Shown here: positions 2,759-37,532 of the stretch, one piece after another
Layout: each line of letters starts with the position of its first letter
Numbering within the stretch: position 1 is the stretch's first letter
Assembly: GCA_021734595.1 (NCBI GenBank)
Contig: JAIPIO010000003.1
Location: 1-39,205 of the forward strand
Direction: 5' to 3'
Length of the DNA stretch: 39,205 nt
Origin: Kiritimatiellales bacterium
GTDB taxonomy: Bacteria; Verrucomicrobiota; Kiritimatiellia; Kiritimatiellales; Pontiellaceae
The notes under the pieces: model-generated
Told to the model about the DNA's origin: nothing
The model's input: only the letters and a program-made list of their open reading frames with translations
The model's database searches: none
Made by a program: the position numbers and the translations under genes

Positions 2759-4066
2759 ATGAAATGTATCTTCAGAATGATCGCGTCGGATATGCACCCC
2801 AATCTTACATCAATTCTTGTTTTAGCAGGTTGCATGGCCTCTGCCTCCCTATCCGCATCGGCGGGCGAGTGGACCCGGTTCCGGGGACCGAATGGGCAAG
2901 GCATCAGCGCCGCAGAAAATCTCCCGGCCAAGTGGACGGAAAAAGATTATAACTGGAAAGTCAGCCTGCCGGGGACGGGGCATTCCTCTCCTGTGATATG
3001 GGGAGGCAAAATATTCCTTACGTGCGCCGACCCCGAAGCGAACACAACATCGCTTGTGGCTCTAAGCACAAAAGACGGCAAGGAGCTCTGGCGAAAAATA
3101 TACAAGCTGGAGGCCTATCACCTGCAGAAGGATAACAGTTACGCCTCCAGCAATCCCGCGCTGGATAAAAAGGCCGTTTACGTCATGTGGCACAGTGAAA
3201 CGGAAACCGTGCTGTCCGCATTCACTCACAACGGAGAGGCGTTGTGGCAGTCCAAATTTCCTCCTGTGAGCAGCCAGCACGGCCCGTCTGTCACTCCCGT
3301 CGTCGTGGATGACATCATTTTGTTTGCATTGGAGCAGCGCACCAACGACAACGGCGCGAAAAGCGCCTGGATTGCCGTCAGCAAAAAAACCGGGGAAGAA
3401 ACATGGAGAGTCGAGCGCCCATGCGCGGACAAGGTAGGCTACTCAACTCCCTGCCTGTACCCCCGCGAAAACAAATCGCCTCTTATCCTGTTCCTGTCAA
3501 AACCCCAGGGCATCATGGCGGTCGAGCCGGCTACCGGAGAAATGGTTTGGCAAATGGATACCGTGTTCACAAAACGCCCGGTCGCTTCGCCAGTGATTGC
3601 GGATGGTCTGATCGTAGTGTCAAGTGGTTCCGGGTCTGGAGGAGTACGTCTTGTGGCCGTGCGTCCTGTCAACGAGAAGGGTACCGAAACGCTTAAAGAG
3701 GTGTATGAAAAGGCTGATAAAAAGGCCAAGACCATGGCGCCGTATGTTCCTACTTCGCTGGCAAAGGATGGGCTGCTTTATATATTTCACGATCGTGGGT
3801 ATATCAGCTGCATCGATTCCAAAACAGGAAAGGAACATTGGACCGAGAAACCCGGCGGAGCATTCTACAGTTCGCCTGTCTGGGCCGATGGAAAACTGTA
3901 CTGCACGACCAAGGCCGGTGATGTGGTTGTGCTGCGCGCTTCGGACAAATACGAACTTTTGGCGGTCAATCCCCTCGGCGAGAAGAGTTACGCCACCGCG
4001 GCCATAGCCGACGACACGATCTATTTCAGGACGGTCTCACACCTGATTTCCGTCGGCGGAAAGTAA
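2759..4066 (+). CDS. PQQ-binding-like beta-propeller repeat secreted protein
   Basis: ORF 2723..4066; EWTRFRGPNGQGISAAENLPAKWTEKDYNWKVSLPGTGHSSPVIWGGKIFLT and repeated WADGKLYCTTKAGDVVVL propeller repeats. Start could be 2759 or 2792. Confidence 0.88.
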   Translation: MKCIFRMIASDMHPNLTSILVLAGCMASASLSASAGEWTRFRGPNGQGISAAENLPAKWTEKDYNWKVSLPGTGHSSPVIWGGKIFLTCADPEANTTSLVALSTKDGKELWRKIYKLEAYHLQKDNSYASSNPALDKKAVYVMWHSETETVLSAFTHNGEALWQSKFPPVSSQHGPSVTPVVVDDIILFALEQRTNDNGAKSAWIAVSKKTGEETWRVERPCADKVGYSTPCLYPRENKSPLILFLSKPQGIMAVEPATGEMVWQMDTVFTKRPVASPVIADGLIVVSSGSGSGGVRLVAVRPVNEKGTETLKEVYEKADKKAKTMAPYVPTSLAKDGLLYIFHDRGYISCIDSKTGKEHWTEKPGGAFYSSPVWADGKLYCTTKAGDVVVLRASDKYELLAVNPLGEKSYATAAIADDTIYFRTVSHLISVGGK

Positions 4067-4253
4067 TGCAGAAATCTTCCAGGCGTTGGAAGAGTGTTTC
4101 TAATGATAAGGAGCTGGAATAAACGTCTTAAAACCTAAATGCACCATCCCCCCTCCGGGTGACCGCCGCCATTACGCAGACCGAACGTGCGCCCGGTTTC
4201 TGAAGGCAGTAAGGACGACCGAGAACGGCGGGCGCCAAAAGGCTCATGTTCTT

Positions 4254-12858: not shown

Positions 12859-13087
12859 CTACCGGATAAAATGGGTCCAGATTTTGGCCGCCGGTTCGGG
12901 GGCGGGAACCGCTTCTTTTCCGTGCTCGATCAGCTTCAGGAGCCAGGCCATGTTTTGATCCAGCACCTCCATGATCTGCTTGCCTTCATCATCCTGCTCC
13001 ATCTCCCCGGGCGCGAGGCCGTGGACCACATTCCAGTAGTTGGAAGCGGGCATGATCATTTCGGAATAGCTGATGAATTTATCCAGA
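12859..13087 (-). pseudogene. 3' fragment of a flavodoxin/NAD(P)H-dependent FMN reductase-like gene
   Basis: GLDKFISYSEMIMPASNYWNVVHGLAPGEMEQDDEGKQIMEVLDQNMAWLLKLIEHG, resembling C-termini of flavodoxin-family reductases; no N-terminus before the junction at about 13088. Confidence 0.6.
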
Positions 13088-13247
13088 CCGGTGATGTGGT
13101 TGTGCTGCGCGCTTCGGACAAATACGAACTTTTGGCGATCAAACCCCTCGGCGAGAAGAGTTATGCCACCGCGGCCATAGCCGATGATACGATCTATTTC
13201 AGGACTGTTTCACATTTGATTTCCGTCGGCGGAAAGTAATGCAGAAA
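13088..13247 (+). pseudogene. Duplicated 3' end of the PQQ-propeller gene
   Basis: Gapless near-identical copy of 3915..4074 (constant offset 9173) including stop and AATGCAGAAA downstream. Confidence 0.92.
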
Positions 13248-15141: not shown

Positions 15142-15158
15142 TTTCCAGCCATTGGAAA
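15142..15158. repeat. Single TTTCCA-N5-TGGAAA palindrome
   Basis: TTTCCAGCCATTGGAAA. Confidence 0.65.
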
Positions 15159-17959: not shown

Positions 17960-18083
17960 CAGGCAAAGGCCAAAGCAGGTCAGGCCGCTGACCAGCAGAA
18001 TGGCGAGGCCGAGGTTGATGTTTTTGTAGGCCAAAATGCATTGAGGGAGTAGGCAGGCACGGGGCCGGCGATGGCGGTCCCCC
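17960..18083 (-). pseudogene. Frameshifted 3' fragment of the sodium:solute symporter gene
   Basis: Near-identical to about 19024-19140; LAYKNINLGLAILLVSGLTCFGLC; one A missing in CCAAAATGCATTG vs CCAAAAATGCATTG splits the frame. Confidence 0.85.
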
Positions 18084-18320
18084 GCCAAACCCCTGGCCGG
18101 TGGAATCCTGCCCCGCCGGGCCACCCGTCCATTGCGCATTCTCCACACAACACCCGAGCCCTACGGGCAACCCCGTGGTTCCCCAGGCATGACCCGCCTT
18201 TGCCATAGGCTGCGGCATGGTTCACCTGCTCGCTGTGAAGGGGACATCGCGCCGCCGCATATGTTGTTCGCATTCTCCCTGCTGCATGCAGGGTTTCCTG
18301 CGTAGGCGGATGGGTGGCCG

Positions 18321-18341
18321 ATATATCATATAATGATATAT
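18321..18341. promoter_or_regulatory. PadR operator-like palindrome, copy 1
   Basis: ATATATCAT-ATA-ATGATATAT (perfect 9-3-9 palindrome) just 3' of padR. Confidence 0.55.
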
Positions 18342-18345
18342 CTCC

Positions 18346-18687
18346 CTATTTGCAGTTCGTGAGAAGGCGGTTGATGCCGGCGGAGAAGAGTTCCCATTTT
18401 TTGGCGCGGACCTTGAGTTCGGCAAGGCCGCGGGACGTAATCCAATAGGTATTGCGCACCCGTTTCTCGCAAACGGTTTCCTGCCGGCTTTTGAGCCAGC
18501 CTTTTTTCTCCATCTGCCGGAGCAGCGGATAGATCCGCCCCAGCGACGGATGAACCACCTCATGTGAGATATCGCCCAGCTCCTGCCGAATGAGGTAGCC
18601 GTGCATGGAGGCCCCGCCGTTCAGCAGCGCCAGAATGAGCATCTCGGTGTGCCCCTTTACCATTTCCCCTTCTACCGGCCGTTTCAT
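18346..18687 (-). CDS. PadR-family transcriptional regulator
   Basis: MVKGHTEMLILALLNGGASMHGYLIRQELGDISHEVVHPSLGRIYPLLRQMEKKGWLKS; RBS GGAAGGAG upstream. Confidence 0.9.
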   Translation of the reverse strand: MKRPVEGEMVKGHTEMLILALLNGGASMHGYLIRQELGDISHEVVHPSLGRIYPLLRQMEKKGWLKSRQETVCEKRVRNTYWITSRGLAELKVRAKKWELFSAGINRLLTNCK

Positions 18688-18821
18688 ACGCTCCTTCCTC
18701 TACTTGCAGGCTGGTCGCTCCGAAGGATCGCGAGTCTCCGACCTGCGGTGCGCACCGCCACCATTCAGGTGGTTCCACCTCCACCGAGACGGCAATTGGC
18801 ATCGCCTGAACATCTGCGATA

Positions 18822-18850
18822 CATATATCATTATATGATATATCTGCCAA
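18822..18850 (-). promoter_or_regulatory. padR promoter with operator copy 2 between -35 and -10
   Basis: Minus strand: TTGGCA (18850-18845), 17 bp, TATATG (18827-18822); ATATATCAT-TAT-ATGATATAT palindrome at 18823-18843 fills the spacer. Confidence 0.5.
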
Positions 18851-18866: not shown

Positions 18867-18945
18867 TTTCCAATGTTTGGAAATGGGGCATTCTCTTTTT
18901 CCAGACCTTGGAAAAACGACGGATCATTTTTCCAATGTTTGGAAA
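18867..18945. repeat. Three TTTCCA-N5-TGGAAA palindromes, centres 18875, 18906, 18937 (31 bp spacing)
   Basis: TTTCCAATGTTTGGAAA, TTTCCAGACCTTGGAAA, TTTCCAATGTTTGGAAA. Confidence 0.85.
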
Positions 18946-18970: not shown

Positions 18971-20428
18971 CTACCTGCCTCTCTTGTTCTCTAGCAAAGC
19001 GGGTGGTGAAGAAAATATATAACAGAGACCAAAGCAGATCAGGCCGTTGACCAGTAGAATGGCGAGGCCGAGGTTGATGTTTTTGTAGGCCAAAAATGCA
19101 TTGAGGGCGTAGGAACACAAGGGGCCGGCGATGGCGATCCAGGGCACCCTCTTGTCGTTGACTTGACGCTTCAACAGAATGCCGAAGGCGAAGAGGCCCA
19201 GCAAGGGACCGTAGGTGTAGCCCATGGCTTTGAAGAGCGTCCAGACCACATCGTTGTTACCGAGTTGATGAAACCCGCAGACCACCAGAAACAAAACAAC
19301 GGAAAAGGCGATGTGGACCTTGCGGCGATAGCTCACCTGCCGGTTGGGGGACTTTGATTCGATGTCGGCAAAATCGACGCAGAACGAGGTGGTGAGCGAC
19401 GCCAAGGCCGAATCGGCACTGGAGTAGGCGGCGGCCACCACACCAAGTATGAAAACGATGAAGGCCCCCGGCGTGGCCAAATGCTCAATCACCCCCGGGA
19501 ACACCTTGTCGCCGTCCAGCTGGGGCAGGAATTTCTGGACATAGAGTGTCAGGAAGGCGCCCAGTACCAGAAAAGCAAAGCTGCTCAGGACAAACAGGAT
19601 GCTGAAGCTGAAAATGTTTTTCTGGGACGAGCGCAGGCTGCTGCAGGTGAGATTTTTCTGCATCATATCTTGGTCCAGGCCATTCATGACAATGGTGAGG
19701 AAAATGCCGGAGACAAAGCTTTTCAGGAACGTCGCCCAGCCCGAAGAAATCTGAGTCAACCCGCTTTGCCGAGCCGTGTTGAGGCATTCTGAAAAGCTGG
19801 AGCCCATGGTGCCGGGAAGCTTGATGATGAAGAATGCCAGGGCGAAGAGGAGGAAGAGGGTTTGCAGTGTGTCGGTCCAGACCACGGTTTTGATGCCGCC
19901 TTTGAAGGTATAGAGCCAGATCAACAGGATGGAAACAAAAGCGGTTGCGGCAAAAGGCAGTTCAAATGAGGTGAATAGAGGTTTGAAAACAATGTTGTGC
20001 AGAACAACAGCGACTAAAAACAGGCGCAGGGAAGCGCCGACTGTGCGCGACAATAAAAAGCAAAAGGCCCCCGTGCGGTAGCTGTGCCGTCCAAAGCGCT
20101 CATTGAGGTAGCCGTAGATCGATGTCAGGTTGAGCTTGTAGTAAAGAGGCAACAGCATCAGGGCCATCACCCAGTAGCCCACCATGTTGCCCAGTACAAG
20201 TTCCATGTAGGAAAAATGGTTTTTCACCACGGAACCGGAAACCGATAGGAATGTGACTCCCGACAGCGACACCCCGATCATACCGAATGCCACCACAAAC
20301 CACGGGGAGCGGCGACCGGCACGGAAAAAGTCATCGTTTGAATTTTTTTTACCCGTGAAAAAACCAATCAGGCAGAGAATGCCGAAATAAGCAAAGAGAA
20401 TGATGAGACCTGTAAGGGAGTTATTCAT
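18971..20428 (-). CDS. Sodium:solute symporter (SSS family)
   Basis: Multi-spanning membrane protein; FFRAGRRSPWFVVAFGMIGVSLSGVTFLSVSG typical of SSS family. Confidence 0.9.
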   Translation of the reverse strand: MNNSLTGLIILFAYFGILCLIGFFTGKKNSNDDFFRAGRRSPWFVVAFGMIGVSLSGVTFLSVSGSVVKNHFSYMELVLGNMVGYWVMALMLLPLYYKLNLTSIYGYLNERFGRHSYRTGAFCFLLSRTVGASLRLFLVAVVLHNIVFKPLFTSFELPFAATAFVSILLIWLYTFKGGIKTVVWTDTLQTLFLLFALAFFIIKLPGTMGSSFSECLNTARQSGLTQISSGWATFLKSFVSGIFLTIVMNGLDQDMMQKNLTCSSLRSSQKNIFSFSILFVLSSFAFLVLGAFLTLYVQKFLPQLDGDKVFPGVIEHLATPGAFIVFILGVVAAAYSSADSALASLTTSFCVDFADIESKSPNRQVSYRRKVHIAFSVVLFLVVCGFHQLGNNDVVWTLFKAMGYTYGPLLGLFAFGILLKRQVNDKRVPWIAIAGPLCSYALNAFLAYKNINLGLAILLVNGLICFGLCYIFSSPPALLENKRGR

Positions 20429-22280
20429 TATTCAGGCTCAGGAGTTTGCCGACCAGTTTGTTCAAGACGGGAAATTCTATTTTGAGGCATGACACCTCTT
20501 CGTTCAGTAATTCCAGGGCGGGAGGGATAAATTCCAGAAATTCTTCTTTACCGCGAATGGTGGAGAGAAAGCCGTAGGCTCCGAGAGCCTGCATATGACG
20601 CTGCATGCCGCACAGGACAAGGGCTTGTTGTGATTCGCCGAAAGTCATGTTGAGCCGGTCGCTGGCGATCGCCAGATAATGACGTTCCAATTCCTTGCGC
20701 AGATGGTGGGGGAGACAGAGATAGGGGTCGCCGATCATCGAGGCGGCATCATAGAAGCACGGCCCGTGACGGGCGGCCTGGAAATCGATGACCCAGGGTT
20801 TTCCCTGATGGATCATCACATTTGACGACTGGAAATCACGGTGCATCAAGTTGCGGGGGAAACCGGAAACGGTGTCGGCCAGCTGCCGGAATTCCCGCCC
20901 AAGAGCCTCTACACGCGGCTGGCAGAACTCTTTTAAGCCGAAAATTCGGTAAACACACCGTTCCATAAAATAGGAGCTTTCCCAGCGCAGGACGGTTTTG
21001 TCGAAAGGTTTGTCCCGGGGGTATGGGGAGTCGTCCGTGTCTGTCCATTGGAAATCAATCAAAAGGTCCAACACGGTTTTGAGCATGTGTGCGATTTCTT
21101 CAACCGAATGGGTTTGGCACCAGATCCGCAAGGATTCATCACCCAGATCTTCCAGCAGCATTTGCCTTTTCGCCGGGTTGTGCGAATAGATTTGCGGTAC
21201 GGGAAGATCATTCCGCCGCAGTATTTCGGTGAGTACAATCTGGCGTTCCACCATCGGTTCAACGGCGGTGTACTCCAACAGCAGGCCCTCCGCAACATGG
21301 CGGTAGACCCGATCCGAGCCGCCGAGTATCGTCCTGCCGTCTTTGGGGATATTCTCAGTGGCCGGCAACGAAAAGGATTCACGGAAATCCGGGCCGGCAA
21401 CAATCGAACTCAATGTTTCCCCGTTTTCGATATGGGTTCCCGGCAAAAGGATGGTATCGCAAAGTTCGACGTTTGAACCGATCACCACGTTTTTCTCAAC
21501 CACGCAGATTCCGCTGATCTGTGTGTCCCAGGGGATTCCCAACGGCTCGGCAAAGAAGCGCTCAGATCCTTTCAGGCAGGAGAAAGCCCCTTCGGCGAAA
21601 CTGGCCACATTCCCCAGATCGATCCAGGGGCTGGATCCGATGTCATATGTACCCACCCGTTTCGTTTGTTCAGCGGCCGCCACCCAATATGGAGGCACAT
21701 GGGATTCGCCTTTGGGCAGGGTTTCGAGAAACTCCGGTTCATAAATGGCCGCGCAGGCATAGCCCAGCCAACGATGCACGCCGGGGGTTTTCATCTCCTG
21801 GTCGATACAAAGCAATTTTCCTTCGGCATCCACACCCACCCGGCGTTCACGGGAACGGTCTTGCACCGCAAGCGTCACCATATTTCCGGAGCGCCGATGA
21901 TGCTCGGCGAATGCCTTCCAATCGATATCCGTCAAAATATCCCCGTTGATCAACAGGCAGGTGCCCTGCATGAAAAAATCGCGGGCATTGGCAATGGCTC
22001 CACCCGTTCCCAAAAGTTCCTCTTCGTAAAAAAACGTAGGACGAGGCAGCTCAGGCTGCAGTTCCCGGGCCCATTCCTGGAAGAGTTCCGGCTGGTAGTG
22101 CAGATTCATCGCTAAGTCGTGGATTTTTAAGGAAACCTGAACGGAATGAAGCAGCCGCTCAATCAGGACGACCCCCGCCAACGGCAGCAAAGGCTTCGGG
22201 AATCTGTTCGACACAGGTTGCAGCCGGGTTCCCCGTCCTGCCGAAGCAATAAAAAGATTAAGCGGCCATTCATGTTCCAT
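20421..22280 (-). CDS. Bifunctional sugar nucleotidyltransferase (MurU/RmlA-like) with hexapeptide region and C-terminal APH/AmgK-like kinase
   Basis: N-term LFIASAGRGTRLQPVSNRFPKPLLPLAGV; middle VVEKNVVIGSNVELCDTILLPG; C-term LMHRDFQSSNVMIHQGKPWVIDFQAARHGPCFYDAASMIGDPY (APH HxDxxxxN and DxD-like). Start probably 22280. Confidence 0.87.
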   Translation of the reverse strand: MEHEWPLNLFIASAGRGTRLQPVSNRFPKPLLPLAGVVLIERLLHSVQVSLKIHDLAMNLHYQPELFQEWARELQPELPRPTFFYEEELLGTGGAIANARDFFMQGTCLLINGDILTDIDWKAFAEHHRRSGNMVTLAVQDRSRERRVGVDAEGKLLCIDQEMKTPGVHRWLGYACAAIYEPEFLETLPKGESHVPPYWVAAAEQTKRVGTYDIGSSPWIDLGNVASFAEGAFSCLKGSERFFAEPLGIPWDTQISGICVVEKNVVIGSNVELCDTILLPGTHIENGETLSSIVAGPDFRESFSLPATENIPKDGRTILGGSDRVYRHVAEGLLLEYTAVEPMVERQIVLTEILRRNDLPVPQIYSHNPAKRQMLLEDLGDESLRIWCQTHSVEEIAHMLKTVLDLLIDFQWTDTDDSPYPRDKPFDKTVLRWESSYFMERCVYRIFGLKEFCQPRVEALGREFRQLADTVSGFPRNLMHRDFQSSNVMIHQGKPWVIDFQAARHGPCFYDAASMIGDPYLCLPHHLRKELERHYLAIASDRLNMTFGESQQALVLCGMQRHMQALGAYGFLSTIRGKEEFLEFIPPALELLNEEVSCLKIEFPVLNKLVGKLLSLNNE

Positions 22281-22378
22281 GCTCCAATGGTCTACCAAGA
22301 ATCAGTGGGGGTTCATAGCTTAAAGAAACATTTGCACCAGGACCGCCTTTTTTGCATCGCCGCCATCTGGGCGGCCTG

Positions 22379-26108: not shown

Positions 26109-26180
26109 ATGATCGGAATTTTTATATACAGTGGTTCAGGTTGGAGCTATATAGCTTTTGATTTTTACCATTAGGAGTAT

Positions 26181-26885
26181 ATGAACCCAACCTTGTCCGC
26201 TGCCGTGGTGATCCGCCGCGTTGGCTTGAATCGAATTGACGACCTCCTTGCGCTGGAGGAATCTTGCTTCAGTTGCGACCGAAGCAATCGCCGCAATCTC
26301 CGGCATCTGTTGCTGTCCCCAAGCGCCTTTTGCCTTGGCGCCTACCATGGTGGCGAGCTGGTCGGCAGCATGGTTGTCTTGTTCAAAAGCAACTCCGGTG
26401 TGGCCCGGATATATTCATTGGCCGTTGCTGCTGCGGCGCGCGGACTGGGAGTTGGCCGGAGACTGTTGGCCAAGGCCGAGCAGAAGGCGAGGGAGCGTGG
26501 TTGCACGCAGATGCGGCTAGAGGTGCGCATGGACAATTTTCCAGCCATTCGGCTTTATGAACGCCATGGGTTTACCGATACCGAGGTCTTGTGCGGATAT
26601 TATGAGGACGGGAAGATTATTCCGGCGCAGTATTTCGGTGAGTACAATCTGGCGTTCGACCATTGGTTCAAAGGCGGTGTATTCCAACAGCAGGCCCTCC
26701 GCAACATGGCGGTAGACCCGATCCGAGCCGCTGAGTATCGTCCTGCCATCTTTAGGGATATTCTCAGTGGCCGGCAACGAAAAGGATTCACGGAAATCCG
26801 GGCCGGCAACAATCGAACTCAATGTTTCCCTGTCTTCAATACGGGCCCCCGGCAAAAGGATGGTATCGCAAAGTTCGACGTTTGA
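26181..26885 (+). pseudogene. GNAT acetyltransferase copy whose 3' end is replaced by antisense nucleotidyltransferase sequence
   Basis: Matches the GNAT at 30444..30911 up to GYYEDG, then reads antisense through the 26517..27689 gene; shares upstream GGAGCTATATAGCTTTTGATTTTTACCATTAGGAGTATATG with the second copy. Confidence 0.85.
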
Positions 26886-27689
26886 ACCGATCACCACATT
26901 TTTCTCAACCACGCAGATTCCGCTGATCTGTGTGTCCCAGGGGATTTCCAACGGCTCGGCAAAGAAGCGCTCAGATCCTTTCAGGCAGGTGAAAACCCCT
27001 TCGGCGTAACGATTCACATCCCCCACATCAATCCAGCGGCTGGATCCGATATCGTACGTGCCGATCCGGTAAGTTTTTTCAGCGGCCTCCACCCAGTATG
27101 GGGGCACATGGGATTCGCCTTCAGGCAGGGTTTCCAGAAACTCCGGTTCATAAATGGCCGCGCAGGCATAGCCCAGCCAGCGATGCACGCCGGGGGTTTT
27201 CATTTCCGGGTCGATACAAAGAAGATTCCCTTCAGCGTCCACACCTACACGGCGTTCACGGGAACGATCTTGCACCGCAAGTGTCACCATATTCCCGGAG
27301 TTCCGATGATGCATTGCAAATGCGTTCCAATCGATATCAGCCAAAATATCTCCGTTGATCAACAGGCAGGTGCCCTGCATGAAAAACTCATGGGCATGGG
27401 CAATGGCTCCACCCGTTCCCAAAAGTTCCTCTTCGTAAAAAAACGTTGGTCGAGGCAGCCCAGGCTGCAGTTCCCGGGCCCATTCCCGAAAGAGTTCCGG
27501 TTTGTAATGCAGATTTATCGCGAAATCGCGGATTTTCAAGGACGCCTGCACGGAATGCAGCAGGTGCTCAATCAGGGGGATCCCAGCCAGTGGCAGCAAA
27601 GGCTTCGGGAATGTATTCGTCACAGGTTGCAGCCGGGTTCCCAACCCTGCCGAGGCAAGGAAAAGATTAAGTGCTCCGGTCTGTTCCAT
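26517..27689 (-). pseudogene. Truncated copy of the nucleotidyltransferase-kinase gene, kinase domain lost
   Basis: Highly similar to 20421..22280 through MVERQIVLTEILRRNxLPV, then reads antisense through GNAT. Nucleotidyltransferase and hexapeptide regions remain open. Confidence 0.85.
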
Positions 27690-27849
27690 ATCCAGTCGGT
27701 AAACCAAGAATCAGTGGCAGTTCACAGCGGAAAGATAAATTTGAATAAGAGCCGCCACAAGACGGTTCCCGGGTTGTTGATTTTCTCCGTAAAACCAATC
27801 AGGGGGGTGGCACAGTTTCGGGTCTTCTTGGGGGTAGAGCGGGCAGGGC

Positions 27850-30231: not shown

Positions 30232-30443
30232 GCTCCCGCCATCGAGGCGATCCAATCCGTTGGCTGACTCGGCGCGTATTGGGTCTTTCATGCTAAGCAG
30301 GAAGCTCCATCGGCGCTGAAACCAACGGGTGGGCGGCAGTACGTCTCGGGGGGATTTTATGGGGGAGTCGAATTCACATAATTTGTGTATACAGCCATGA
30401 GGTTTGGAGCTATATAGCTTTTGATTTTTACCATTAGGAGTAT

Positions 30444-30911
30444 ATGAACCCAACCTTGTCCGCTGCCGTGGTGATCCGCCGCGTTGGCCTGAGTCGAATT
30501 GACGACCTCCTTGCGCTGGAGGAATCTTGCTTCAGTTGCGACCGAAGCAATCGCCGCAATCTCCGGCATCTGCTGCTGTCTCCAAGTGCCTATTGCCTTG
30601 GCGTCTATCATGGTGGCGAGCTGGTCGGCAGCATGGTTGTGCTCTTCAGAAGCAACTCCTGCGTGGCCCGGATATATTCATTGGCCGTTGCCCATGCGGC
30701 GCGCGGGCTGGGGGTTGGCCGGCGATTGGTGGCCAAGGCCGAGCAAAGGGCCAGGGCACGTGGTTGCACATGGATGCGGCTGGAGGTGCGTATGGACAAT
30801 TTTCCGGCCATTCGGCTCTATGAAAGCCAGGGATTTGCCGATACCGAGGTCTTGTGCGGGTACTATGAGGACGGAGCGCATGCCTTCGTTTTCCGGAAGG
30901 AGTTGAATTAG
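30444..30911 (+). CDS. GNAT-family N-acetyltransferase (RimI-like)
   Basis: IYSLAVAHAARGLGVGRRLVAKAEQRARARGCTWMRLEVRMDNFPAIRLYESQGF; AGGAG RBS. Confidence 0.92.
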   Translation: MNPTLSAAVVIRRVGLSRIDDLLALEESCFSCDRSNRRNLRHLLLSPSAYCLGVYHGGELVGSMVVLFRSNSCVARIYSLAVAHAARGLGVGRRLVAKAEQRARARGCTWMRLEVRMDNFPAIRLYESQGFADTEVLCGYYEDGAHAFVFRKELN

Positions 30912-37463: not shown

Positions 37464-37532
37464 TTTCCAGACCTTGGAAATAGTTTTCCAATCATTGGAA
37501 AAACATGGATGCAAAGTTCCAGCCCCTGGAAA
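37464..37532. repeat. Three TTTCCA-N5-TGGAAA palindromes, centres 37472, 37493, 37524 (21 and 31 bp spacing)
   Basis: TTTCCAGACCTTGGAAA, TTTCCAATCATTGGAAA, GTTCCAGCCCCTGGAAA. Confidence 0.85.

Follow-up and report, generated by a model that had tools for sequence, protein, structure and literature searches.

The window analysed here, a stretch of 39,205 nucleotides from a Kiritimatiellales draft genome, encodes a small regulator of the PadR family between two exact copies of the palindrome ATATATCAT-N3-ATGATATAT, at 18321-18341 and 18823-18843. The features of the locus are the following.

17964-18080, minus strand: incomplete duplicate (90%) of the neighbouring sodium:solute symporter gene, limited to its 3' end and located beyond padR.
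18321-18341, no strand: putative downstream operator, the same 21-mer inverted, 4 bp past the padR stop codon.
18346-18687, minus strand: padR, encoding a 113-aa PadR-family regulator (PF03551, E-value 1.1e-16), with an ATG start preceded by GGAAGGAG.
18688-18822, minus strand: operator-to-ATG stretch of 135 bp, containing a 36-codon frame.
18822-18850, minus strand: putative padR promoter as read from the sequence, with -35 TTGGCA (18845-18850), a 17-bp spacer and -10 TATATG (18822-18827).
18823-18843, minus strand: putative upstream operator, a 21-bp 9-3-9 palindrome between the -35 and the -10 of padR.
18867-18945, no strand: three TTTCCAN5TGGAAA palindromes (starts 18867, 18898 and 18929, 31 bp apart), part of a genome-wide family of 573 copies.
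19023-19140, minus strand: stretch inside the intact symporter gene (18971-20428) that forms a 118-bp direct repeat with 17964-18080.

The preliminary description of this DNA had placed the palindrome twice around padR, and this is borne out: both copies are exact, 100 dinucleotide shuffles of the window give none, and a third copy is absent from the window even with up to 3 mismatches. Compared as direct repeats, the 23-bp blocks are identical except for the central 3 bp, as had been described. In inverted orientation the two 21-mers show no difference at all, and with flanking bases included 26 of 27 nt agree (18315-18341 and 18823-18849). There is no Rfam match at the locus. The full assembly (G000; 283 contigs, 3.31 Mb, 79% complete) has one further exact copy, on contig 172 at 1732, between two convergent gene ends.

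The padR product scores 61 bits against PF03551, for which the cut-off is 27, and is thus assigned to the PadR family; with TIGR03433 (padR_acidobact) it reaches 69.7 bits, below the curated cut-off of 101.8. Its relatives, 72-86% identical, come from two families of the order. The upstream palindrome fills the 17-bp spacer between TTGGCA and TATATG on the minus strand, as the earlier reading had it. This promoter is weak by consensus and is unlisted in a simple sigma-70 scan because its -10 lacks the final T. An inverted-repeat operator at the gene's own promoter, as expected of PadR regulators, is thus present, and it is kept in the relatives. Apart from the operators and the TTTCCA-type boxes, the 36-codon frame (18700-18813, minus strand) opens 9 bp past the upstream palindrome and stops just short of the ribosome-binding site of padR, and may be either a leader peptide or a chance frame.

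Homologues of padR have been identified in six further genomes of the order, namely G014 (four and a remnant), G027 (an intact and a broken one), G031, G033, G034 and G037 (two, of which one has a displaced start), and a palindrome is present on both sides in all of them. The 11 intact loci, including that of the window, share the order TTGnnn, palindrome, gap, ATG, padR, stop, gap, palindrome. The TTG is kept in 10 of the 11 and lies 6 nt ahead of the upstream palindrome in 9 of the 10 relatives and 7 nt ahead in the window, with the palindrome at the same place in all 11. The gap from palindrome to ATG is 7-10 bp in ten cassettes, as against 135 bp in the window, and that from stop to palindrome is 3-8 bp in ten (nine of them relatives) and 32 bp in the remaining relative. 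Nine of the intact loci span 388-401 bp.

Class-wide, 18 of the 30 padR loci (profile matches reaching E 1e-12) are bracketed by the same 21-bp 9-3-9 palindrome and 12 are not. Of the PadR loci from beyond the class, 81 were compared and none is bracketed, which is no better than random positions; in other phyla a lone 21-bp 9-3-9 palindrome is often present upstream of PadR genes. The letters of the palindrome change with the lineage, giving ATATATCAT, -CAC, -CGT, -CGG, ATACATGGC and ATACCTAGT types; lineages other than the order have ATATATCGGAGTCCGATATAT (G071), ATACATGGC... (G069) and ATACCTAG... (G067 and G073). The arms of the upstream and downstream copies of a cassette agree at 16-18 of 18 bases while the lineages differ among themselves. 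This agreement is never reached in 100,000 random pairings of the 18 cassettes and, with one cassette per lineage, is reached by 2 of 5040 pairings. Next to padR in the G067 and G073 material (L280-L289, L285, L293) the arms are extended to about 31 bp (CCATGATACCTAG...CTAGGTATCATGG). In G027 a CGT-type padR at L052:2845-3231 is disrupted by one frameshift and one stop, and about a dozen intact CG-type sites remain in that genome. The genomes surveyed are mostly incomplete drafts and the site counts are therefore lower bounds.

These arrangements suggest that the locus is probably an orphan autoregulated PadR unit with an operator at each end, whose position has changed between genomes. A PadR dimer would bind the 21-bp palindrome and, at the upstream copy, cover the interval between -35 and -10 and so shut off its own gene. 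The autorepression proposed in the preliminary description is well supported by the kept TTG spacing and by the change of palindrome type with PadR type, features read from sequence comparison. The downstream copy would be a second site for the same PadR, held a few bases past the stop codon. Most likely it strengthens control by keeping PadR near, by pairing with the upstream site or by blocking incoming transcription, and it would also mark the end of the unit, the whole of which appears to have been relocated among intergenic places in related genomes.

A genome-wide scan for the site had been proposed as a way to the regulon. No promoter target was found in G000: the sole palindrome away from padR is flanked by two convergent gene ends, and the 79%-complete genome thus yields no target gene. 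The padR-bearing relatives have about 2-21 palindromes per genome, solitary or paired. Some sites occur at the same codons of conserved genes in different genomes, namely tsaB, DUF2851 and a glycosyltransferase, and single cases of in-gene sites have been found in DUF1015, an MtaB-like gene, rsmA and metH. These genes are without obvious common function and a recognisable regulon is therefore not seen. At the tsaB loci (L183-L195) in-gene palindromes occur in 4 of 5 padR genomes and are absent from most genomes without padR. The tsaB palindrome has been created by point substitutions that change the protein slightly and leave its length unchanged: the TsaB segment reads GVSYSDIS or similar in genomes lacking padR and HISYNDIS, DISYYDIS or DISYSDIS in most padR genomes. 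Insertion of a palindrome into tsaB in the manner of the Rickettsia palindromic elements is rejected, as the orthologues are of equal length.

The genes neighbouring padR differ from locus to locus. The hom-rnhA interval has padR in G033, a different small gene in G037 and neither in G028. The two copies in G037 share 87% identity and differ at 23% of 4-fold sites (77% alike), and yet their similarity stops 16 bp ahead of the upstream palindrome and directly beyond the downstream one. Sharp ends in G014 had also been considered as proof of movement; these were withdrawn after the 4-fold site count, because such sites differ there by 37% and neutral flanks would have faded anyway. PadR identity reaches 72-73% between families, on a par with the 58-65% between copies within a genus, while G031 TsaB shares 40-46% identity with TsaB of the other-family padR carriers G000 and G014 and 66-79% with that of other members of its genus. 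Since hardly any branch of the padR tree is supported, horizontal transfer is argued from this comparison of identities alone. Among viral contigs none encoding a relative of this PadR was found, and plasmids gave distant PadR only (35% identity in the best listed matches).

The possibility that the unit disperses itself in the manner of REP/RAYT, its palindromes being the ends of a mobile cassette and the dispersed copies its offspring, is a real but doubtful one. Under such a scheme the downstream copy would be there since two ends are required for movement. It is in keeping with the differing position in each genome, the sharp ends in G037 and the up to 21 copies in one relative, G067, where six palindrome loci of ATACCTAG type are pairs, 112-280 bp apart, in local tandem duplications. 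Long direct repeats enclose padR in the window (the symporter repeat), L044 and L045, which account for three of the only five repeats of this kind across 382 kb of comparable sequence; palindromes occur within a fourth. L042 has a truncated padR that retains the downstream palindrome. Against it, the unit lacks a transposase or recombinase, nearly identical copies are not found and the tsaB palindromes arose by substitution. Moreover, a palindrome-free duplication of a gene tail also occurs in the window, the 3' end of a PQQ-like protein gene at 3912-4074 being repeated 9 kb away at 13085-13247 (94% over 163 bp). A Y1 transposase as the mover has been rejected, for its genes show no association with padR and are present with and without it; none was detected in G067, the genome with the most palindromes. 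Other duplications in the window join 21178-22347 with 26589-27756 (88% over 1172 bp) and 26117-26611 with 30380-30874 (90% over 495 bp); they involve sugar-nucleotidyltransferase/kinase and acetyltransferase genes, and one yields a fused frame.

The REP/RAYT systems and REPINs (PMC3116915, PMC2817692) are similar in that a gene is flanked by palindromes that are also dispersed elsewhere, single or paired, that tandem repeats carry flanking DNA and that the letters of the palindrome vary by lineage. They differ in that the flanked gene encodes a Y1 tyrosine transposase and here the repressor PadR, in being high-copy and mostly extragenic, with hundreds of copies as against 3 in G000 and at most 21 in a relative, and in that some of the padR-type sites are within genes, in tsaB by substitution. 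IS200/IS605 and palindrome-associated non-autonomous elements are short units with palindromic ends, a description that suits the padR unit as well. Unlike members of the IS200/IS605 superfamily (PMC6006769), the padR unit has no Y1 transposase, and the presence of Y1 genes does not follow that of the palindromes.

To return to the autoregulated unit, the 21-bp palindrome is very probably the operator of the window's own PadR, to judge from the co-occurrence of the two. In a set of 346 genomes of the class, 9 of the 10 with a close padR (E <= 1e-20) hold palindromes of ATATATCRYNNNRYGATATAT type, as against 5 of the 336 others; the tenth, G071, has the CGG variant, which falls outside the ATATATCRYNNNRYGATATAT pattern. 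The recognition helix starts with HPS in CAT-type, QPS in CAC-type and APV in CGT-type cassettes, and operator reading has been ascribed to helix alpha-3 of PadR (PMC3506622). That the palindromes belong to another DNA-binding protein, with PadR as a bystander, is accordingly improbable, since palindrome type tracks PadR type and presence tracks presence, even though G036, G038 and G029 hold sites (some imperfect) with no padR of this family detected. Overlapping palindromes (6 bp overlap, centres 15 bp apart), for example ATATATCGTAATACGATATATCACATAGTGATATAT, occur at L067, L063, L086 and L087 in two genomes and are possibly shared by two PadR types.

A palindrome 3-8 bp past a stop codon that can fold into an RNA hairpin might be an intrinsic terminator of padR, its likeness to the operator being due to chance or shared descent. 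We consider this slightly less probable still and have rejected it: the T run is absent, a terminator scan finds none, the hairpin of the window is unexceptional (z -1.5), and operator letters are not needed for a terminator, yet both copies change together across the lineages.

The replication terminator protein RTP of Bacillus is a winged-helix dimer with a few dispersed sites, some of which fall within genes and one in the promoter of its own gene. A roadblock or fork-barrier system of this kind would accommodate the sites within tsaB, DUF2851, rsmA, metH and other genes that have no common theme. PadR and RTP have moreover been compared structurally, with RTP-DNA serving to model PadR-DNA (PMC3506622). 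It is nevertheless very improbable here, as polar arrest is not expected of symmetrical palindromes, and the five sites of G073, on four different large contigs, do not suggest a cluster at the terminus.

The preliminary description had taken the downstream palindrome for the promoter operator of a lost gene, which we regard as the least credible reading: a gene-tail remnant does lie in the region behind padR in the window, but the copy follows padR in each of the 11 intact cassettes of the order, irrespective of the next gene, and its persistence with changing neighbours and the absence of a conserved -35 on either strand in these cassettes argue against a lost promoter. As the two-ended layout is kept in the relatives, the downstream copy is therefore a conserved part of the unit. 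Within an autoregulated unit it may act by operator pairing, by blocking transcription or merely as the end of a moving unit.

The TTTCCA boxes upstream had been proposed to place padR under an additional activator, and this does not hold as stated. The motif TTTCCAN5TGGAAA is an order-wide repeat, with 573 copies in G000, 45-547 in seven relatives of the order and 0 in two members of the class outside it. Since the copies are so many and only about half of the order's padR promoters have a visible box nearby, the array is not a padR-specific activator site. The nearest box would lie at about -61, a usual activator position, and a role there that is not specific to padR is possible. Further copies occur in the window at 15142, 2652 and 37464-37501, and some fall within genes, where they encode FQTLE.

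Small winged-helix PadR proteins with an inverted-repeat operator at their own promoter are likewise found in LmrR of Lactococcus lactis (PMC4534193) and bcPadR1 of Bacillus cereus (PMC3506622); autoregulation has been reported for the former (PMC4534193) and proposed for the latter (PMC3506622). Operators of the LmrR type have ATGT and ACAT spaced by 8-10 nt (PMC3506622), and LmrR controls the transporter genes lmrCD (PMC4534193). The window differs in its operator, ATATATCAT-N3-ATGATATAT, which does not conform to ATGT-N8-10-ACAT, in the second copy behind the gene and in that a target gene was not found in G000. A separate parallel comes from phage lambda. There the left and right operators lie around the autoregulated cI gene, so that, as in the padR unit, an autoregulated repressor gene stands between operators for its own product and their pairing could tighten control; the separation is about 0.4 kb in the padR unit and about 2.4 kb in lambda.

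Autorepression by PadR is familiar; a layout with operators at the two ends of the gene, kept class-wide while the letters change, is not described in the open-licence literature on PadR and mobile elements, on such palindromes or on palindromes of Kiritimatiellales. A more far-reaching reading, less likely than not, is that this is a dispersing unit whose sole gene is a repressor and whose ends are its operators, which seeds genomes of one class of bacteria with sites while operator letters and recognition helix change together; it would be a counterpart of REP/RAYT in which a repressor replaces the transposase. Whether a repressor gene free of any transposase can spread along with its binding sites, and what role is played by sites inside genes such as tsaB, are testable questions. 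In the cassettes nature also provides a set of paired proteins and operators from which the recognition code of PadR could be read.
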